DNA from: Bacteroidia bacterium
GTDB taxonomy: Bacteria > Bacteroidota > Bacteroidia > Bacteroidales > JAPLDU01
Assembly: GCA_026391255.1 (NCBI GenBank)
Contig: JAPLDU010000025.1
Location: 1 to 48,514, forward strand
DNA: 48,514 nt
Direction of reading: 5' to 3'
Shown: in pieces, positions 17,740 to 29,319 of the stretch
How positions within the stretch are numbered: the stretch's first letter is position 1
Layout of the letters: every line of letters begins with the position of its first letter
The notes under the pieces: model-generated
What the model was told of the DNA's origin: nothing
Seen by the model: the letters and a program-made list of their open reading frames with translations, nothing else
Databases searched by the model: none
Program-made: the position numbers and the translations under genes

Positions 17740-18308
17740 AAATTATCCAAGGTCAAATTTAACATTAAAACATTTATTCTTTTTTCACCGAGACAGAAAA
17801 ACTGCGGATATTCTGTAAGTTCATTGATACATTTGATCAGTTTTTGCTTTTGCGAGATGTCAAAATTCCGGGCCCTGGCAATTCTTTCAACCTGTAATAA
17901 AGCAGCCTCAGGCGAAATATGAGGGTCGAGTCCACTGGCAGAGGCGAAAATCATCTCCTTAGGAATAGCTGTTGTATCTGGTACCAGGTTCTTTTCCGCA
18001 AATACCTTACGTCGTTGCACCACCTGTTTTTTTAATTGTGCGCTGGTCGGCCCAAAATTAGAAGCGCCGGAAGGTACAGGATTATAATCAATGGCTGATG
18101 GCCTTGACCAGAAATATTTTATGCTGTCCGATTTCTGGCCGATCAATTCGGAACCTATGATTTTACCATCTCTTTTCAACAGACTCCCATTGGCTCTATA
18201 AGGAAAGATCAACTGGGCCAATCCTGTCATACACAAAGGGTAAATGATCCCTGTCAGAACGGTCATGATCAGTAAAATCTTTAATGCCGTAATTGTTTGA
18301 GTTTTCAT
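17736..18308 (-). CDS. kdpC: KdpC subunit of the K+-transporting ATPase
   Basis: A 190-residue KdpC with an N-terminal membrane anchor (ALKILLIMTVLTGIIYPLCM) and the periplasmic signatures of the family: YFWSRPSAIDYNP, SGASNFGPTSAQL and ASASGLDPHISPEAALLQ. KdpC stabilises the KdpA-KdpB complex and raises nucleotide affinity. It normally follows kdpB directly; here 580 bp of non-coding, hairpin-rich DNA lies between them. The stop is 75 bp before the kdpD start. Confidence 0.96.
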   Translation of the reverse strand: MKTQTITALKILLIMTVLTGIIYPLCMTGLAQLIFPYRANGSLLKRDGKIIGSELIGQKSDSIKYFWSRPSAIDYNPVPSGASNFGPTSAQLKKQVVQRRKVFAEKNLVPDTTAIPKEMIFASASGLDPHISPEAALLQVERIARARNFDISQKQKLIKCINELTEYPQFFCLGEKRINVLMLNLTLDNF

Positions 18309-18451
18309 ATTATAATAATATTATGTGTTTTGAATTTTTAAAAAGTTCAAGTTATTGATACATTTGTTTTCTACCCGCCCTATCCCCTCTCTGCGAGCAG
18401 GGCTACTCTTTATACACATCTTTTCAGTATTACTCTAAGATATTGATTATT

Positions 18452-18880
18452 ACTTTCTTTTGCAACTACCAAAAGAAAGTAATCAAAGAACTAAGCGAAG
18501 CGTTCTCATGAGAGCCCTGTTCGACAGGGGTCGAGTAAAAGTCACCGCTGCAGATGAATTTGCTGAATTCTACAGAAAATTTGTCTTCACACACAAATTT
18601 TCTTTGAATTCTACGCAAATTAATCTGAGGCGGTTTCCATGGTGCCCGATGTGATTTGCAATAATTTGGGTTAGCTGAAAAAGTCAAATCTTTTTTACAA
18701 ACTAAAATATTTGAATGCGAAGCATAAAATATAAAATTCCTTATCAACGAATTGCTGTTTGAGTGAAGTCGAGGAACGAGACGGAACGAGTTCAATTCGT
18801 TAAGTCTTTTTTGCTTACTTTTTATGACGACAAAAAGTAAGAAGAAAAAAATGTAGAGAATCATCTGGTAAAAATTCATA
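18452..18880. repeat. Hairpin-rich intergenic element inserted between kdpB and kdpC
   Basis: The 580-bp gap 18309-18888 contains a block bounded by two perfect hairpins: ACTTTCTTTTG/CAAAAGAAAGT (18452-18480) and CTTACTTTTT/AAAAAGTAAG (18814-18841). Inside are further inverted pairs, AGAAAATTTGT/ACAAATTTTCT near 18575-18605 and AACGAATTG/CAATTCGTT near 18747-18810. Its right-hand words (GCGAAGCATAAAATA, and AATCATCTGGTAAAAATTCA) recur at 31090-31135 beside another hairpin block. A 137-codon minus-strand ORF runs through it but looks accidental. It resembles a non-autonomous mobile repeat; no transposase is present. Confidence 0.75.
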
Positions 18881-18888
18881 ACAGTTAC

Positions 18889-20988
18889 TTAAACTAAATG
18901 TATAATAACCAGCAACATATCAATCAGTTTTATTCCGAAAAAGGGAATGATAATTCCTCCGATTCCATAAATCAGCATATTCAAAGCAAGTACTTTATTG
19001 GCTGATATGGGACGGTATTTAACACCACGCAAGGCAAGTGGTATCAAAGCGATGATGATGAGTGCATTGAAGATTACAGCGCTTAAAATTGCACTTTCAG
19101 GAGTTGCCAGTTTCATAATATTGAGGATGCTTAAAGGAGCAATCCCGGTGGAAGTGACATACAATAATGTAGCAATGGCAGGAATAATGGCGAAATATTT
19201 GGCAACATCGTTAGCAATGCTGAAGGTTGTAAGCGCGCCCCTGGTCATTAGTAACTGCTTGCCTGTTTCCACGACTTCAATCAGTTTTGTCGGGTTGCTG
19301 TCCAGGTCGACCATGTTACCGGCCTCACGGGCAGCCTGGGTACCGGTATTCATTGCCAGGCCTACATCCGCCTGGGCTAAAGCCGGCGCATCATTTGTAC
19401 CATCTCCGATCATCCCTACCAAATGACCATTTGCCTGTTCCTCACGTATCCGCCGCAATTTATCTTCGGGTTTTGCCTCGGCCATAAAGTCGTCGACTCC
19501 TGCTTCGGCTGCAATAGCAGCAGCGGTTAACGTGTTGTCACCCGTGATCATCACGGTTTTAATGCCCATTTTCCGCAATTCGGCAAACCGTTGTTTTATA
19601 CCACCTTTTACAATGTCTTTAAGATGAATGACCCCGAGAACCCTGTTATCTTCGGCAACTACCAGGGGTGTTGCCCCCTGCCGGGCCAGCTCTGAAACAA
19701 TGTCCCGGATATTTTTCGGATAAAAACCATTGTTGTTTTGCACGAAAGAACGGATAGAATCTGCCGATCCTTTTCGTATCTGGTGCAATTTACCATCATG
19801 TGTTCTTATATCCACTCCGCTCATCCTGGTTTGGGCCGAAAATGGGATAAATGAAGCCTGCAGATCATGAACTTCACGTCCCCGGATATTAAATTTTTCT
19901 TTAGCAAGAATAACGATAGAACGTCCTTCCGGAGTTTCGTCCGATAAGGATGAAAGTTGAGCTGCATCTGCCAGTTCTTCAATAGTGACCCCGTCATCAG
20001 GGATAAAATCAGTTGCCATCCTGTTGCCCAGCGTGATTGTGCCGGTTTTATCAAGAAGTAAGACATCTGTATCGCCTGCTGCTTCAATTGCTTTACCACT
20101 GGTAGCTATCACATTCTTGCGCAATAACCGGTCCATACCGCTTATCCCGATTGCACTCAGTAAACCTCCGATCGTTGTCGGGATCAGGCATACCAGCAAT
20201 GATACAAGAACAGGCAAAGTCAGGTTTTGATTGGCAGGTAAGCCTGAGGCTTTCAGACTGTACCCAAAATACGCCGGCATGCAGACAACCACTAACAGGA
20301 ATATAATGGTTAGGCCAGATAAGAGGATGATCAAAGCAATTTCATTCGGCGTTTTCTGACGTTTTGCCCCTTCAACAAGGGCAATGATACGGTCTAAAAA
20401 TGTATTACCCGGTTCAGATGTCACCTTAATAACGATCCGGTCGCTGATTACTTTTGTTCCGCCTGTCACTGCGCACCTGTCACCACCGCTTTCCCTGATG
20501 ACCGGGGCTGATTCCCCTGTAATAGCTGATTCATCAACACTGGCAATACCTTCAACAACATCCCCGTCGGCAGGAATTATTTCCCCTGCTTCACAAACCA
20601 CCATATCTCCCTTTCTCAGAGCTGTCGCAAGCACCACCTCTTCTTTATTATGTAATAGTTTACGGGCTTTTGTCTGGGTGCGGCTTTTACGCAAACTGTC
20701 TGCCTGCGCTTTTCCTCTGCCTTCGGCAACTGCTTCGGCAAAATTGGCAAACAGTACAGTGAACCAAAGCCATATGGTTATCTGAAAATTGAAGGATGAA
20801 AAATGTCCTGAAAAAATATTCAGAAATACCACGACAGTTGTCATCAGCGCACCAATCGCCACTATAAAAATTACGGGATTTTTGACAAGAGCTTTCGGGT
20901 TCAGTTTAATAAAGGAATCTTTTATGGCCTGCACTGCAATTTCCCTGGTAATCAGGCGGCTCATATTTCTTTTTTCCATACTATTCAT
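18889..20988 (-). CDS. kdpB: KdpB P-type ATPase subunit
   Basis: A 699-residue P-type ATPase catalytic subunit. Visible motifs are TGES at 157-160, the KdpB-specific [15 protein letters not shown], phosphorylation Asp313 in DKTGT, MITGDN, and the hinge [22 protein letters not shown] (read in parts). [22 protein letters not shown] near the C-terminal third is diagnostic of KdpB. It hydrolyses ATP to drive K+ uptake through KdpA. It begins 12 bp after the kdpA stop, so the two are surely cotranscribed. An alternative start at codon 4 (MEKRN) is possible. Length and motifs are normal. Confidence 0.97.
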
Positions 20989-21000
20989 CTCAGAAAATTA

Positions 21001-22686
21001 TTAAAACGTTACACCCAGATTCATTAATAAATGTTCCACTACCGGGCCCAAAGCAAGCGGAGGGAAAAACGTCAGGCCTCCAACGATAAGAATCACGCTT
21101 AACAACAACAGTACAAATAACCAGTTATCGGTTTTAAAAGTACCGGCTGAAACAGGGGTGATCTTTTTCCTGGCCATGCTTCCCGAGATAGCCATCACAG
21201 GAATGATAACTCCAAAACGGCCAATGAGCATGCCGAATCCGATCATCAGGTTATAAAAAACTGTATTGGCGTTGAGCCCTGCAAAAGCGCTTCCGTTGTT
21301 TCCTGCAGCAGAACTGAAAGCGTACAGAATTTCAGAAAAACCATGAGGTCCGGCATTATTGAGGCCCGCCAGACCTGCAGGTATCGAGCAGGCAATGGCC
21401 GAGAACAATTTGATGACAACACTTGGCGCCAGTACTGCAATTATGGCCATTTTAACTTCAAACGCTTCTACTTTTTTGCCCAGGAATTCAGGCGTTCGGC
21501 CAACCATCAGTCCGGCAATAAATACCGTAATAAAAATGAAGATGATAATGCCATATAAGCCTGAACCTACTCCTCCGAAAATGATTTCACCGAGCATCAG
21601 GTTGAACATGCAAACCAATCCGGATAAAGGAGATAAACTATCATGCATGCAGTTCACTGCTCCGCAGGAAGCATCGGTGGTGACTACGGAAAACAATACA
21701 CTGTTGGCCACCCCAAAACGGGTCTCTTTTCCTTCCATGTTGCCCGAAACATTCAACACATTATTATGACTGTATTCTGACCATAGAGATATAGCAAGTC
21801 CCGCAGCAAACAGAATAAACATGGTAATAAATATCGCCCATGCCTGGCGTTTGGATCTTGCATAATAACCATAAGTAAATACCAGGCCGGCTGAAATGAT
21901 GAGGAGGGCAAACATTTCTAAAAAGTTGGTGAGAGGTGTCGGGCTTTCGAATGGATGAGCAGCGTTGGCATTAAAGAATCCTCCTCCGTTGGTGCCAAGT
22001 TGCTTGATAGCGCTTTGTGAGGCTGCCGGGCCGAGTGGGATTACCTGTTCGGTTCCCAGCAAAGTGGTTGCTCTGGCATAATGTGAAAATGTCTGTACGG
22101 CTCCCTGGCCGACAAAAATCATAGTTAGAACAATAGATAATGGCAACAGCACATAAACCACACAGCGGGTGATATCAACCCAGAAGTTGCCAATTTTTTC
22201 TGTGGTCTTCCTGGTCAGCCCCCGTATCATGGCTATTGCTACTACGATACCGGTTGCTGCGCTGAGAAAATTCTGTACTGTCAGCCCTATCATCTGTACC
22301 AGGTAACTCAGGGTATTTTCTCCGCTATATGACTGCCAGTTGGTATTGGTTGTGAAACTGGCAGCAGTATTGCATGCGAGATGCCACGGAACATTTGGTA
22401 ATTTCTCAGTGTTCAAAGGTAAATATGCCTGCAGCATCTGAATCAGGAATAAAAACACCATGCCAAACAAGTTGAACAGAAGGACTCCGTACAAATAAGT
22501 CTTCCAGTTCATCTCTTCTTCTCTGCTTATTCCGGATATCCGGTAAATGATTTTTTCAAGCCAGCCAAAAACAGGCTTCATGAAATGATTCTCACCCATG
22601 AAGACCTTTGCCATGAACTTTCCTATTATAGGTGCAAGGGCTACCAGCACTGCCATGAAAAGAATCAGTTGAATTGCCTCATTCAT
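21001..22686 (-). CDS. kdpA: KdpA K+-channel-like subunit
   Basis: A 561-residue polytopic protein of the SKT superfamily that binds and translocates K+. The four selectivity-filter-like regions are recognisable: FTTNTNWQSYSGE, LGTNGGGFFNANAAHPFE, TTDASCGAVNCMHDSLSPL and AAGNNGSAFAGLNANT. Length matches the family (~560). It starts with ATG at 22686, about 236 bp downstream of the porin gene; that spacer contains repeat tracts of CTGTAGGC and AATTACG words. It is followed at 12 bp by kdpB. Confidence 0.97.
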   Translation of the reverse strand: MNEAIQLILFMAVLVALAPIIGKFMAKVFMGENHFMKPVFGWLEKIIYRISGISREEEMNWKTYLYGVLLFNLFGMVFLFLIQMLQAYLPLNTEKLPNVPWHLACNTAASFTTNTNWQSYSGENTLSYLVQMIGLTVQNFLSAATGIVVAIAMIRGLTRKTTEKIGNFWVDITRCVVYVLLPLSIVLTMIFVGQGAVQTFSHYARATTLLGTEQVIPLGPAASQSAIKQLGTNGGGFFNANAAHPFESPTPLTNFLEMFALLIISAGLVFTYGYYARSKRQAWAIFITMFILFAAGLAISLWSEYSHNNVLNVSGNMEGKETRFGVANSVLFSVVTTDASCGAVNCMHDSLSPLSGLVCMFNLMLGEIIFGGVGSGLYGIIIFIFITVFIAGLMVGRTPEFLGKKVEAFEVKMAIIAVLAPSVVIKLFSAIACSIPAGLAGLNNAGPHGFSEILYAFSSAAGNNGSAFAGLNANTVFYNLMIGFGMLIGRFGVIIPVMAISGSMARKKITPVSAGTFKTDNWLFVLLLLSVILIVGGLTFFPPLALGPVVEHLLMNLGVTF

Positions 22687-22726
22687 ATTTTTTAAATTAA
22701 AATTCTAAATGAAATATTGTTATAGT

Positions 22727-22880
22727 ACAGGTTGTTTAGACTGTAGGCTTTTAGACTGTAGACTATCAGGAATTACGAATTACGAGTTACGAATTACAAT
22801 TAATAAATCGGATACTAACATTTTCAAATTTTCAAATCTTTACATATCTTGATACCTGATACTTAATACTTGATACATGT
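22727..22880. repeat. Tandem-repeat cluster between porin gene and kdpA
   Basis: Three short-unit tracts are adjacent: GACTGTAGGCTTTTA-type (about 22735-22765), 7-bp AATTACG/AGTTACG units (about 22771-22798), and TTTTCAAAT plus CTGATACTTG units (about 22818-22878). No promoter or gene is visible. Confidence 0.8.
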
Positions 22881-22922
22881 TATTTTCCAGGCCAGTTATG
22901 CATATCAAACAGTTTTAACAAC

Positions 22923-24290
22923 TTATAATCTGAATAATAAAGCAAGGATAATCCTGTTTTCTGATTTGACCAGGTCGGGTCTCCAGTTCGGATCTAACGG
23001 AGTAGTAGAATATCCTGTCTGGGATGTTACACCTCCGCTTCCTGCAAAATAAGGAACACTTGATTGTCTGTGAACAAATTCAATACGAAAAGTGATGCTC
23101 TGGTTCGGCATAAAATCAAAATTTGTTGAGCAATCCCAGGCCTGAAATTTATCACCTGGATTAGCGCTGAATGGAAATGCCCCTTCAGTTTGGGTAGGAT
23201 TATTTGGATTTGGTAATGGACTTGCCAGTCCTGTCGGATATAACACTAAATATCTTCCGGGGTTAGTCATTACACCTCCGCCAATTGTCCATGCAAATTT
23301 GTTTTTAGCAAACCACACACGATTATAAAACATAGCGCTGGCAAAGTATTGTGCCGGTCCCTGAATACTATCGCCATTTTTGAAACCATTAACACCACCA
23401 CCTTTCTCAAAGCCTATATCAGCTGTTAAAGTAAATGCCATCATGCTTATTCCATCAGATTTCGGGTTATTCAGATATCTGATCAATAAGCTGTTGTCCG
23501 AATGAAAACGCTTTCTATCGGGGATTCCGGCTGCATCAGTTCCGTAATAATCATTTGTTAATAACTTTATATTACTATTTTGGGGCATCCAGGTAATATT
23601 TCCTCCAAAACCTGGCATATTATTGAACATTCCATAACTTTGCCAGCCATTGATAAGCCAACCTTCAATTTTTATGTATTTTGTCGGGAAAACCTGGATG
23701 CGCATTCCATTAAAAAACCATGGTGTATTATCAGAAGTAAATGATGCCTGGTATTCCCAATTTTCAGGTTGATAATAAGAATTTAAACCAATGTATGACA
23801 TAAATATGCCTGCATCAATATTGATTCCGTACCATTTATTGAAATGATAACCTGCATTTGCTTCACTGAGGTAACGATACACATTAGCCAATTGGTACTG
23901 TCCGTGATATGGGCTAAAGTCATTCCGGGGAACAACTATTGAACGCATTCCGAACTGTGTCATGAATCTTGCTCTTGCTCCGTAATAACTAAAATCTCCG
24001 CCAAAATGCATAGCATTTAGCTGAATCTCATTGTCGCGGGCCAAAGCGGTTGAACCGACTACAGTGTTATCATTTGGATTATTAAACGAATGGGTATAAG
24101 CTATATCCATTAATAAACCGGGAGTAAAGAATTTCATTTTATTAAATACGGATGAATCTCTACGGTCGCATCCGTTTTGCCATGTCATATCTATTCCGTC
24201 AAATGGAATTTTTTCGGGCTGAACTGCTTGTTGTGCAAACAGATTAATACTAATTACAGTTATTATGAAAAATACAGTAATTGTTTTCAT
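22923..24290 (-). CDS. OmpL/Bbp2-type outer membrane beta-barrel porin in the Kdp locus
   Basis: A 455-residue protein with a signal peptide ending NLFAQQ (about 20). The mature part is rich in alternating aromatic and polar strands and ends in a C-terminal aromatic/hydrophobic strand, ...NRIILALLFRL, as in outer membrane barrels. The GIDMTWQNGCDRRDSSVF opening, the FLMTQFGMRS-like strands and the C-terminal QSITFRIEFVHRQSSVPYF fit the putative OmpL-like beta-barrel porin-2 family. Lying between kdpF and kdpA on the same strand, it probably lets K+ or small solutes across the outer membrane when the Kdp system is induced. That role is inferred from position; specificity is unknown. Confidence 0.82.
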   Translation of the reverse strand: MKTITVFFIITVISINLFAQQAVQPEKIPFDGIDMTWQNGCDRRDSSVFNKMKFFTPGLLMDIAYTHSFNNPNDNTVVGSTALARDNEIQLNAMHFGGDFSYYGARARFMTQFGMRSIVVPRNDFSPYHGQYQLANVYRYLSEANAGYHFNKWYGINIDAGIFMSYIGLNSYYQPENWEYQASFTSDNTPWFFNGMRIQVFPTKYIKIEGWLINGWQSYGMFNNMPGFGGNITWMPQNSNIKLLTNDYYGTDAAGIPDRKRFHSDNSLLIRYLNNPKSDGISMMAFTLTADIGFEKGGGVNGFKNGDSIQGPAQYFASAMFYNRVWFAKNKFAWTIGGGVMTNPGRYLVLYPTGLASPLPNPNNPTQTEGAFPFSANPGDKFQAWDCSTNFDFMPNQSITFRIEFVHRQSSVPYFAGSGGVTSQTGYSTTPLDPNWRPDLVKSENRIILALLFRL

Positions 24291-24883: not shown

Positions 24884-25082
24884 GAATGTGACAATGTGGT
24901 AATGTGATAATGTGACAATGTGATGAAGAGATGAAGTGATGAAGAGATGAAGTGATGAAGTGATGAAGTGATGCTAAAGTCCCACTGATAAAAGAGGTGT
25001 GATTGTTTTATGTATGATCGTAATTTTCAAATCTTCAAATTTTCAAATTCTCAAATTCTCCAGGTTCGATTGTTCAATTGTT
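24884..25082. repeat. Tandem-repeat cluster upstream of kdpF
   Basis: Tracts in order: TGACAATG/TGGTAATG units (about 24886-24922), 8-bp GATGAAGT/GATGAAGA units (about 24923-24973), then TTTTCAAAT/TCTCAAAT units (about 25022-25058) and TTGTTCAATTGTTC. The last reaches the 3' end of the next minus-strand gene. The first tracts lie upstream of the presumed kdp promoter. Confidence 0.85.
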
Positions 25083-26906
25083 CTTCTTTCTTCCGGATTT
25101 GGAATGAACCTGATGAAATCCAAACCTGTAGTGAAATCCTACCGATATATTGTTCTTTGCATCATATCTGCTCCTGAAATTGCTGATTAACAAAGCTTCT
25201 GCAAGGATCTGGTCATTCACGGGAATGATGGCATTTCCATAAAATCCTCCGGCAGACCATCCCGCCCTGATACATGTTCCGTCAACCTTACCAAGTCCTG
25301 TTCCCAGGCCAATCTGGTAATCCATCAATGGCGTTACGGGCTTATAAAAACCTGCCAGCGACATATCCATGTAAAAAATATCGTATGGACCAAACCTGAA
25401 CGATAATTCAGGAAATGCCGCAAGATCTTGCACCGTATGGTTATAATCACCGATTTTATTTACCTTTTCATAGATATCGGCAAACCGCAGGTTTCCGAAA
25501 TGAAGTCCAAAAGCAAACCCGAACCACCTCGAATCCGAACTGAATGACGGGTTGATATCAATAATGTTGTGACGGACATCAAAAACGGTATCAATACCTT
25601 TCTCATATTCGCTGCCAAAACTGGCATGAATGCCGAAAGCATTTCTTTTAAACCGGTCAAATTGCTTTTTTCTTGAAATGCCAATGCTGCCTATTACATA
25701 ACTATGTTCTATGTTGTGAGGATTACTGAACCAATATGTGTTAAAACAACTTTGGTCATAATCGGTTGCCTGGCTCACCTGCTTGTAATATCTTCCGATT
25801 GCCGTTCCAAAGTCGAATTCATTATATGCAATGGCGTCTTTATTATTACCGGGAATATATGTCTGGCTCATGAGCAGGAAGGCTGACAGGGAAACCAGGG
25901 CAGTCATGATACGGAAGCCTGGCAGTGTAAGTCGTTTCCAGGCATTCCAGCCGGTAATAACAGTTGCAGGAACAAGAATAAGACAGATGGCTGTCTTTTC
26001 AAAAATATCGAACCAACGCCCGGCTGACCTGAAGACCAGGATCAGAAACAGGACAAGTAAGACTGAACGATAAACCGGCGCTTCTTTTGAAATTGAACTG
26101 TGAAATATATTTCCTGCTTTTCTTTCCCTTAACACCAGAATGATGAGCAGGATAATCCTGGTAAATATCAATAGCCACTGTGCATTTTTCAGACTGAGGA
26201 ATTCACCGGCCGGAGAGTTATTGGCAGCCGGGTCACGCAGAAAATCAAGGAAAAACCTGAAAAAACCGTAAAGAATAATTGCAAAAATAAGCAGACTGCC
26301 ATTTGCTTTCCAGGAATTCCTGAAACGGTAAACCAGTAAAATAACAAAGAGACAACTGATAATATCATAAACCGGCCATGGATGTACTGGCAGAGAAACC
26401 GTATCATAGCTGTGTACCAGGTTCCTCTCAAGCTGGGCCTGAAAAGCGTCAGAGCCGGCGGAATACTGAACCGACCAGGGAAGTTGTGCCGGAGCGCCAA
26501 AGCAACAGCCTGAAAACAGGCAACCTGTACGCTGAATGATCATTGCTAAAGGAAATGCAAAGGCAAAACCACGGGTGATATCTCCCCTGAACCTGAGCCA
26601 ACGGGAAGAAAACAAAACAAAAATAAGCCCGAGAAATACTCCAGAAGCAACTTTCCCCTGAGCCGGTGGTAAAGAAAAAGATTTCAAAGCATAAAACCAC
26701 TCTGAAACCGGGATAGTAAAGGCTTTAATACCTGCAATACCAAACAATATCCCTGATGCAGCCAGCAACCAGATTTCCTTCACCGGATAATTCCTGCGGT
26801 AACCATCAATGATAACAGATACACTGATGACCATCATTGCAAGCAGAAATGCCAGCGGAAAATATTTACCGGTCACAGCAGGATTGATGAATATGCTGCT
26901 TATCAT
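25074..26906 (-). CDS. Lgt-family polytopic membrane protein fused to a beta-rich C-terminal domain
   Basis: This 610-residue protein has two unlike halves. Residues 1-260 resemble prolipoprotein diacylglyceryl transferase: several transmembrane helices, QRTGCLFSGCCFG (Arg126) at the position of the Lgt RIGNFINGE signature, VHPWPVYDI (from about 174) matching the HPSQLYE-type motif, and YGFFRFFLDFLRD matching RFLVEFFR. Lgt transfers diacylglycerol to lipobox cysteines. Residues 275-350 add more helices. Residues 360-610 are soluble-looking and beta-strand-rich, with alternating patterns (RWFGFAFGLHFGNLRFADI, NISVGFHYRFGFHQV) like an outer-membrane or carbohydrate-handling barrel, though I cannot name a family. 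Three cysteines replace the Asn/Glu of canonical Lgt, so it may be a paralogue with another substrate rather than the housekeeping enzyme. Confidence 0.75.
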   Translation of the reverse strand: MISSIFINPAVTGKYFPLAFLLAMMVISVSVIIDGYRRNYPVKEIWLLAASGILFGIAGIKAFTIPVSEWFYALKSFSLPPAQGKVASGVFLGLIFVLFSSRWLRFRGDITRGFAFAFPLAMIIQRTGCLFSGCCFGAPAQLPWSVQYSAGSDAFQAQLERNLVHSYDTVSLPVHPWPVYDIISCLFVILLVYRFRNSWKANGSLLIFAIILYGFFRFFLDFLRDPAANNSPAGEFLSLKNAQWLLIFTRIILLIILVLRERKAGNIFHSSISKEAPVYRSVLLVLFLILVFRSAGRWFDIFEKTAICLILVPATVITGWNAWKRLTLPGFRIMTALVSLSAFLLMSQTYIPGNNKDAIAYNEFDFGTAIGRYYKQVSQATDYDQSCFNTYWFSNPHNIEHSYVIGSIGISRKKQFDRFKRNAFGIHASFGSEYEKGIDTVFDVRHNIIDINPSFSSDSRWFGFAFGLHFGNLRFADIYEKVNKIGDYNHTVQDLAAFPELSFRFGPYDIFYMDMSLAGFYKPVTPLMDYQIGLGTGLGKVDGTCIRAGWSAGGFYGNAIIPVNDQILAEALLISNFRSRYDAKNNISVGFHYRFGFHQVHSKSGRKKNN

Positions 26907-27040: not shown

Positions 27041-27352
27041 GTGAATTTGATTGAAGAAAATAAAGATAAGTTAAAAGAACTTTGTGATAATCATAAGGTA
27101 AAAGAATTGTATTTGTTTGGTTCTATTCTTAATGATCAATTTAATGATTCCAGTGATATTGATATGTTAATTCTATTCAATCAGGTAAATTTGCTGGAAT
27201 ATTTTGATAATTATATGGATCTTAAAGAGAAATTAGAATTGTTATTTCATAGACCCGTTGATCTAGTGGAGAATCAGGCAATAAAAAATCCAATATTCAG
27301 AAAGGTAATTGAAAGGGAAAAAAAGCTAGTGTATGAACGAAAAAGTGCTTAA
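27041..27352 (+). CDS. mntA: MntA-type nucleotidyltransferase antitoxin
   Basis: A 103-residue minimal nucleotidyltransferase. The catalytic pattern is intact: Gly27-Ser28, ten residues, then Asp39-Ile-Asp41 (FGSILNDQFNDSSDIDMLI), plus a later acidic residue in RPVDLVEN. In MntA/HepT modules this protein AMPylates a tyrosine of the HEPN toxin to silence it. The start is GTG at 27041, supported by the promoter immediately upstream and by MNLIEENKDKLKEL being a normal N-terminus. It overlaps the downstream hepT start by 20 bp, the usual order. The partner is broken, so this antitoxin may be relict or may act in trans. Confidence 0.88.
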   Translation: MNLIEENKDKLKELCDNHKVKELYLFGSILNDQFNDSSDIDMLILFNQVNLLEYFDNYMDLKEKLELLFHRPVDLVENQAIKNPIFRKVIEREKKLVYERKSA

Positions 27353-27667
27353 ATGTTTATATGACATTAAATTATCAATTGATGAAATTGATTCGTACTT
27401 TGTTGGTCATCATAAGGATTTAAAGAATATTCAACAAATATACTTCTGAAAAGGGCTGTAGAAAGAAATTTAGAAATAATTGGAGAAGCCATGAATAGAA
27501 TTCTCAAAGAAGATTCTGAATTTCCCATTGAAAATGCTCATAGGATCGTTGGATTAAAAAATCAGATAATTCATGGATATGATAATGTGTCTGATGAAAA
27601 TATATGGGGCATTTTGGATAATCATATTCCGATGCTTAAAAAAGAGATCAACAGGTTAATAGGATAA
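27333..27667 (+). pseudogene. hepT: HepT-like HEPN toxin, frameshifted
   Basis: The frame opens at ATG 27333 (MNEKVLKCLYDIKLSIDEID) and stops after 38 codons at TGA 27447-27449. In another frame from about 27443 the family continues clearly: LLKRAVERNLEIIGEAMNRI, then VGLKNQIIHGYDNV, ending at TAA 27665-27667. Joining the frames needs the equivalent of one missing base near 27440, and gives about 111 residues, the normal HepT length. The HEPN ribonuclease motif R-x4-H reads K-x4-H (KNQIIH), so the catalytic arginine is also replaced. Both changes point to an inactivated toxin. A sequencing error could explain the frameshift but not the substitution. Confidence 0.85.
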
Positions 27668-27743: not shown

Positions 27744-28962
27744 CTATTCCCTGATAAACTTTCCAAATTCCGTGTTTTCATGATCCATTATCCTGATAAA
27801 ATAAATACCCTTTGTGAGAGAACTAATATTTATTTCAGAAATTGAACCATCCAATTGCTGCTTGATTAACTCCTGGCCATTCAATCCGTAAACAGAGACA
27901 GAACTCATTGATTTATTATAGAATTCCGGCAGTTCAATATGTATATAATCTGTGGCAGGATCTGGAAATACTTTAAACTCTGCAGATGTTGTGTTTCCAA
28001 TTCTTTCGGCGGTAAATCCTCCATTTGATGTTCTTAATATGGTACCATTGGCGCCTACTGCATATCCATGAACAGAATCAGTAAAATATACTGAATATAA
28101 ATCATTTGATGTTCCGCTGGCTGTTGTAGTCCAATTATTGCCGCCATCAGTTGTTTTTATGATTGTACCATAGTTGCCTGCTGCATACCCGACATTTACA
28201 TCCGGAAAATATATGGAGCACATTAAATCAGGGTGTGAGCCTGATATGTAAACATAATTCCAGGTAATACCTCCATCAGTGGTCTTTGAAATTCCACCGG
28301 TACACCAGTTAATATTGCATCCGCCAAGAGCAATATATCCAACGGAGGAATTAGTGCAGAATACTGAATGCACGTAAAATGCTGTCTGATCAGTGGAAAA
28401 ATTATTATTCCAGGTAATTCCGCCATCCGTAGTTTTAAGAATGGTCTCAAATGTAGTCGTACCAGCGATTCCAACCACAATACCTGTATCAGCATCAATA
28501 AAACAGACTGACATCAGGTTATTTAAAGTTCCGGAAAATTGACTGTTCCAATTTGAACCATTATCGGTGGTCTTAAGAATTGTTCCATTATCACCTACAA
28601 TATAACCTGTATTTGCATCAGGAAAACAAACAGACCGGAGATTGGAGGTAGTTCCTGAAGGTATTGTCAGCCATGTGATTCGTTCCATTTTCACCTACGG
28701 CAAAAATAAAGTTTGAAGAATTAATATAAATATCTTTAAGATTCTGTGTCGATTGTGAAATGAGGTTTACCCAGCTTATTCCTGTATCGGAGCTTTTTAA
28801 AATGGTGCCATAATCACCAACCGCGTATCCCGTATTTTCATTGGCAAATTTCACAGATAACAAGTTCAAATTTGTTGGTACTGTAGTGATTACTTCCCAT
28901 TGTGAAAATGAATAAGGTACTGAACATACCAATGTGATTAAAAGTAAAAATGCATTTTTCAT
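27744..28962 (-). pseudogene. BNR/Ycf48-like repeat protein with T9SS tail, broken by an internal deletion
   Basis: The gene starts at ATG 28962 with a signal peptide (MKNAFLLLITLVCSVPYSFS) and repeats of the form VGDYGTILKSSDTGISW. At about 28678-28686 the frame changes: FAVGENGT is followed out of frame by ITWLTIPSGTTSNLRSV. Comparison with the other repeats (GTILKTTDGGxxW) shows that the codons for about eight residues, ILKTTDGG, are missing, with a length that is not a multiple of three. The downstream part (open from 28694) has four more repeats, then a T9SS type A tail starting FKVFPDPATDYI and ending TEFGKFIRE. Ycf48-like repeats form beta-propellers. The signal peptide and sorting tail are now in different frames. 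Confidence 0.82.
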
Positions 28963-29319
28963 TATAATGATGGTTAAAATTCTTTTTTCAATTTGTCGGC
29001 TAATACGTGTTGCCACAATTATTTGACTTGTCCGGATAAAAATAACTTCCAGTTGATTTGTAATGAACTGTGAAGTTTTCTCCGGAAATGGCTGCCTATT
29101 CAGAGCATATTTCATTTGCATGTATCCCTGAAGCCATGGTTACATCCGGTACATGCATATGAATAGTAAACATAAGAACCGCAGTCATGCGTTTAATAAC
29201 ACTTGAAAAGAACAATAGTTCTGACTTATATGATGCAGATGATCCTTACGGCAGCTTTTAACTAATTTTTATAGAATACCACGAATAAGAAGACTTCAGC
29301 CTATGCTACCTGAATAATC
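28963..29319. other. Spacer without a convincing gene
   Basis: The frame of the broken BNR gene stays open upstream to 29121, but its 53 extra codons look non-coding and the signal peptide begins at 28962. No repeats of the families seen elsewhere and no RNA gene were recognised. Confidence 0.5.

Follow-up and report, generated by a model that had tools for sequence, protein, structure and literature searches.

What a single gene can encode when one half resembles an inner-membrane enzyme and the other a barrel, and where the two halves come to rest, is the question raised by a gene at 25074-26906 of the window (the whole 48,514-nt stretch analyzed here). A sequence-only reading had placed it at exactly these coordinates and described its product as an inner-membrane protein like prolipoprotein diacylglyceryl transferase (Lgt) joined to a barrel-like domain. 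The coordinates stand, although it is the minus strand that carries the gene, as a single open frame of 610 amino acids; the plus strand over the same interval has many stops. The fusion is real and widely conserved, but “joined” is probably not its final state, the last helix before the strands being signal-peptide-like. In the reading we consider probable, the gene encodes a two-compartment polyprotein that would be cut at an internal Q-rule signal peptide, parting an outer-membrane barrel from an Lgt-like protein of the inner membrane. The full-length AlphaFold2 model, built from a 23-row alignment (pLDDT 80.5), has ten membrane-spanning helices followed by about 12 strands. Features are listed in Table 1.

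Table 1. Features of the fusion gene, with positions in the window.
Feature	Positions	Strand	Basis
Whole gene, 610 aa, one open frame	25074..26906	-	ORF translation
Lgt-like domain, residues 2-269, 7 predicted TM helices	26100..26903	-	Pfam LGT 66.2 bits; VIA-align Z 14.5 to 5azb
GCLFSGCCFG, residues 128-137, at Lgt signature position (E. coli 145-154)	26496..26525	-	Alignment; C129, C134, C135 invariant
TM8 and TM9, residues 278-325, two extra TM helices; E303 invariant	25932..26075	-	Alignment and predicted model
TM10, residues 329-347, proposed internal signal peptide ending LLMS	25866..25922	-	Sequence pattern
Gln348, proposed new N-terminus after signal peptidase I (Q-rule)	25863..25865	-	Sequence pattern; PMC5837995
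Predicted 12-stranded beta-barrel, residues 359-599	25110..25832	-	Predicted models, structure alignment, strand amphipathicity
Cys387, barrel; invariant in 23/23 aligned fusions, present in distant fusions	25746..25748	-	Alignment

Distribution of the Fusion

No stop or frameshift separates the halves at this locus, and at 22 other loci, too, the frame runs uninterrupted through the fusion. Altogether, 23 full-length or near-full-length copies with this layout (600-640 aa) were aligned across the Bacteroidota; all align over their whole length except one that begins at a contig edge (L004). A first scan of genome contigs with a single protein as query found no fusion, while searches of relatives and of the phylum gave the same layout in four other genomes and an alignment-based scan of genome contigs gave about twenty more. 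Carriers belong to the Bacteroidales, Lentimicrobiaceae, Prolixibacteraceae, Flavobacteriaceae (Seonamhaeicola, Mangrovimonas, Aestuariibaculum), and several Hymenobacter; the last four genera named are cultured. Two distant fusions come from a Myxococcales MAG (L133) and an unplaced MAG (L094), and profile comparison supports the homology of their barrels to those of the main set (E 6e-7 over 76 columns). The fusion is rare: the order sample has it in two of its 98 other genomes and the phylum sample in two of 394. None of the copies found was plasmid-borne.

Identity matrices of the two halves correlate (Mantel rho 0.46, 0 of 2000 permutations). Both halves are under purifying selection, with dN/dS of 0.09-0.34 in either half where computable. 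Since the fusion recurs in 23 aligned genomes, isolates among them, and its halves co-vary under these dN/dS values, an assembly chimera or frameshift was rejected. Around the fusions there are no conserved neighbor genes except within Hymenobacter, so an operon partner was set aside as a clue to function. A stand-alone copy of the barrel was likewise absent from the host genome and from the eight fusion genomes where the barrel profile finds a barrel, a profile that missed two distant fusions (G492, G493). With neither conserved neighbors, Hymenobacter aside, nor a further barrel copy in those eight genomes, the fusion gene looks self-contained.

The Barrel Half

Strands had been proposed for the C-terminal 250 or so residues, and about 12 are predicted there; no Pfam or NCBIfam family, of those in either collection, covers this region. 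Residues 359-599 are predicted to form a 12-stranded outer-membrane beta-barrel. Folded alone, the C-terminal part gives a model of about 12 strands (pLDDT 85.4, pTM 0.80) whose best structural match is BrkA (Z 15.1), followed by EspP, Hbp, NalP, the COG4313 channel, and FapF; the strand half of the full-length model matches autotransporter-type barrels at Z 14.7. Foldseek matches are mostly to outer-membrane barrels. Across known 12-stranded outer-membrane barrels (the autotransporters BrkA, EspP, and NalP, the COG4313 channel, KdgM, LpxR) the predicted fold is alike, with Z from 11.9 to 15.1, but no sequence relation was detected to them, and here the barrel is fused behind a multi-pass inner-membrane protein. 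Most strands alternate between a bulky hydrophobic face and one of Gly, Ser, His, and Arg, with a mean contrast of 3.26 vs 1.82 +/- 0.25 when shuffled (0 of 1000 shuffles). So strict an alternation fits what is expected of a barrel within a lipid bilayer and, together with the quality of the barrel model, led to rejection of chance beta-like sequence. Most members end near YRFGxK; the 610-aa protein has a basic tail past its last strand and no classical C-terminal aromatic residue.

Barrel relatives also occur on their own. Those in two genomes (G246 and G399) have signal-peptide-like N-terminal stretches where TM10 stands in the fusion, and match the fused barrel by hhalign (E 1.7e-7), and in Hymenobacter amundsenii a barrel-like gene that starts with such a stretch adjoins the fusion. 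At L140 272-3379 (G399:C1), four or more related small barrel genes with signal-peptide-like N-termini stand in tandem; they are distant kin of the fused barrel.

The Junction and the Proposed Cleavage

E. coli Lgt has seven TM helices and an N-out topology. If this topology is kept, the three helices added in the fusion would bring the C-terminus into the periplasm. The last of them, TM10, ends here in LLMS|Q, which resembles the Q-rule signal peptidase I pattern of the Bacteroidetes: a hydrophobic helix with a preceding basic residue, a small residue at -1, and Gln at +1. By its sequence features, what precedes the barrel looks like a signal peptide in an internal position. Of the 23 members, 21 have [AGSTC]Q close to where TM10 ends (the exceptions are L022 and L062); for each of the other nine helices only 0-3 members do. 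Nearly all members have a basic residue before TM10. Among signal peptidase I substrates of Bacteroidetes, an average of 71% have Gln exposed by the cut (Bochtler et al., 2018; PMC5837995). The Myxococcales relative does not belong to the Q-rule phylum and shows, at the corresponding position, a classic RAVQA|DA site. A signal peptidase I gene is present in the host genome. Counting against cleavage, the -3 residue of the proposed site is Leu, which is not ideal, and the conserved junction Gln could have another role.

Given this resemblance of the joining helix to an internal Q-rule signal peptide, the two halves probably part and end up in different membranes. In the mechanism we propose, the inner membrane would hold the seven-helix, enzyme-like Lgt fold and two more helices, while helix 10 would insert N-in/C-out as an internal signal peptide and deliver the downstream chain to the periplasm. 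Signal peptidase I would cut after Ser347, the exposed Gln348 would be cyclized, and the freed chain of about 263 residues would be assembled by BAM into a 12-stranded outer-membrane barrel. A single chain cut in two would yield its products 1:1, and both presumably serve one pathway.

The protein might instead stay whole, with the barrel-like domain held in the periplasm by its inner-membrane tether and binding, for example, a lipid or the product of the Lgt-like domain. All members are single ORFs, as this would have it, and lipocalin-like chains (3bdr, 4tq2) also align to the barrel, at Z 8.8-8.9. Against it are the amphipathic strands, like those of lipid-embedded barrels, the outer-membrane barrels as best structural matches, the conservation of the signal-peptide-like junction, and the resemblance of the stand-alone relatives to secreted barrels. 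The linker from TM10 to strand 1 has only about 11 residues and could not cross the periplasm, so that an uncut protein could not place one half in each membrane. We regard an uncut, tethered protein as unlikely.

The Lgt-Like Half and Its Possible Activity

The N-terminal half does have the Lgt landmarks attributed to it by the sequence-only reading. Residues 18-258 match Pfam LGT above the gathering score (66.2 bits vs a cut-off of 24.9), and in the predicted model residues 2-269 align with E. coli Lgt (5azb) over 248 residues (Z 14.5, rmsd 4.5). Equivalents of E. coli H196, Y201, R239, and R246 are found in the fusion, where H175 and Y180 are kept; R239, which is R217 here, is kept in 27 of 28 fusion sequences. 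C129, C134, C135, and H175 are invariant across the fusions and R217 nearly so.

The Cys-rich GCLFSGCCFG is indeed at the place of the usual signature, but it is not peculiar to this protein. The pattern GRxGCxxxGCCxG is common in single-domain Lgt homologs of the Myxococcota, Planctomycetota, Hydrogenedentota, and others. These share the three-cysteine signature with the fusion, but many retain R143, most have Tyr at the position of H103, and they are often adjoined by lspA (named by eye from its sequence). In Tautonia sociabilis, in an assembly of unstated completeness, the only Lgt homolog found is Cys-rich. Given that many single-domain Lgts carry the signature with R143 kept, some of them beside lspA, the signature alone is no mark of novelty, and the idea that the single-domain Cys-rich homologs are generally a new enzyme family was rejected on the proximity of many to lspA and the sole copy found in Tautonia. 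Bacteroidota relatives also have another group of Lgt-like proteins, 390-416 aa long (L007, L009, L011, L014, L016, L017, L019, L020), in which N146 is replaced by Cys, E151 by Gly, and H103 by Tyr.

In the mechanism proposed here, the Lgt-like half may act by transfer onto a thiol or lipid, by way of C129/C134/C135/H175 and R217, and not by ordinary prolipoprotein diacylglycerylation. A new lipid-modifying activity, as the sequence-only reading had suggested, is possible but unproven. One version of it would make the gene an enzyme-substrate polyprotein: Cys387 of the barrel would receive a lipid, or some other modification, from the Lgt-like half of the same chain, either ahead of the internal cut or following it. 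This cysteine is just after strand 1 and is invariant in the 23 aligned fusions, and a cysteine is seen by eye at the matching place in L133, L094, L074, and L085; some stand-alone barrels have a similar cysteine without an Lgt fusion. We think such self-modification rather unlikely; if true, it would mean a Cys-modified outer-membrane barrel and a way of attaching lipid that does not go through the lipobox.

A second working prolipoprotein Lgt, to which the barrel is fused incidentally, is a still poorer prospect. It would account for the Lgt fold with R217, H175, and Y180 kept, for R126 at the place of R143 in the 610-aa protein itself, and for the Cys-rich signature of the only homolog found in Tautonia. 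However, H103, R143, and E151 of E. coli Lgt are intolerant of mutation, and R143K is inactive (Mao et al., 2016; PMC4728403). The H103 equivalent is absent in all 28 fusion sequences, those of E151 and N146 are Cys in all 28, and the R143 place has R (9 sequences), C (8), K (6), T (3), S (1), or Q (1), so that R is replaced in 19 of 28. The NCBIfam Lgt equivalog scores are far below their cut-offs (44.2 vs 334 bits, 30.2 vs 118.9 bits). The separate canonical lgt whose presence was in question exists on another contig of the host genome (G000:C42:42379-43107, 235.8 bits, 270 aa) and has an ordinary RTGNLMNSE signature, and every fusion genome checked has an additional, separate, and stronger LGT match. 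With H103 and E151 lost, R143 not conserved in the family, and this separate match, the Lgt-like half is unlikely to be a second ordinary prolipoprotein Lgt.

Two overlapping genes, with the barrel translated from its own internal start, are highly improbable: in Hymenobacter sp. BRD67 (L085 4900-5200, complete genome) a frame break does fall within TM10, and what follows is a barrel frame with an ATG of its own and a signal-peptide-like beginning, but this single exception looks like a frameshift, and internal initiation is made unlikely by the presence of an ATG in the needed stretch in just 5 of 23 members, none with a Shine-Dalgarno-like sequence.

Comparison With Known Systems

To our knowledge, an inner-membrane enzyme with several membrane passes and an outer-membrane barrel are not encoded together in any other conserved single ORF, and a literature search found nothing relevant on Lgt fusions or on internal signal peptides linking inner- and outer-membrane proteins. 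A signal-peptidase-processed polyprotein is known in FbcH (cytochrome b-c1) of Bradyrhizobium, where, as proposed here, one ORF with an internal signal peptide gives two products. Both FbcH products remain in the inner membrane, whereas one of those considered here is expected to reach the outer membrane. Cleavage of the internal signal peptide, if it occurs, would show the Q-rule signal peptidase pathway at work within a polytopic protein, linking the supply of two membranes. That the halves are strictly paired also implies an uncharacterized Lgt-like reaction in the service of an outer-membrane barrel, an idea open to direct test in cultured Flavobacteriaceae and Hymenobacter.

Other Genes in the Window

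Three other regions of the window may be mentioned. At 27744-28694 and 28618-29121 (minus strand), a YCF48-like BNR-repeat protein that has a T9SS sorting tail seems to be divided between two overlapping frames, through a frameshift or an assembly error. At 27041-27667 (plus strand) there is a small MNT-like nucleotidyltransferase followed by short frames (27333-27449, 27491-27667) that might, as a guess, be a broken HEPN partner. At 17742-24290 (minus strand), frames for kdpC, a KdpB-like P-type ATPase, and a KdpA-like protein are followed on the same strand by a BBP2 porin-2 barrel gene.
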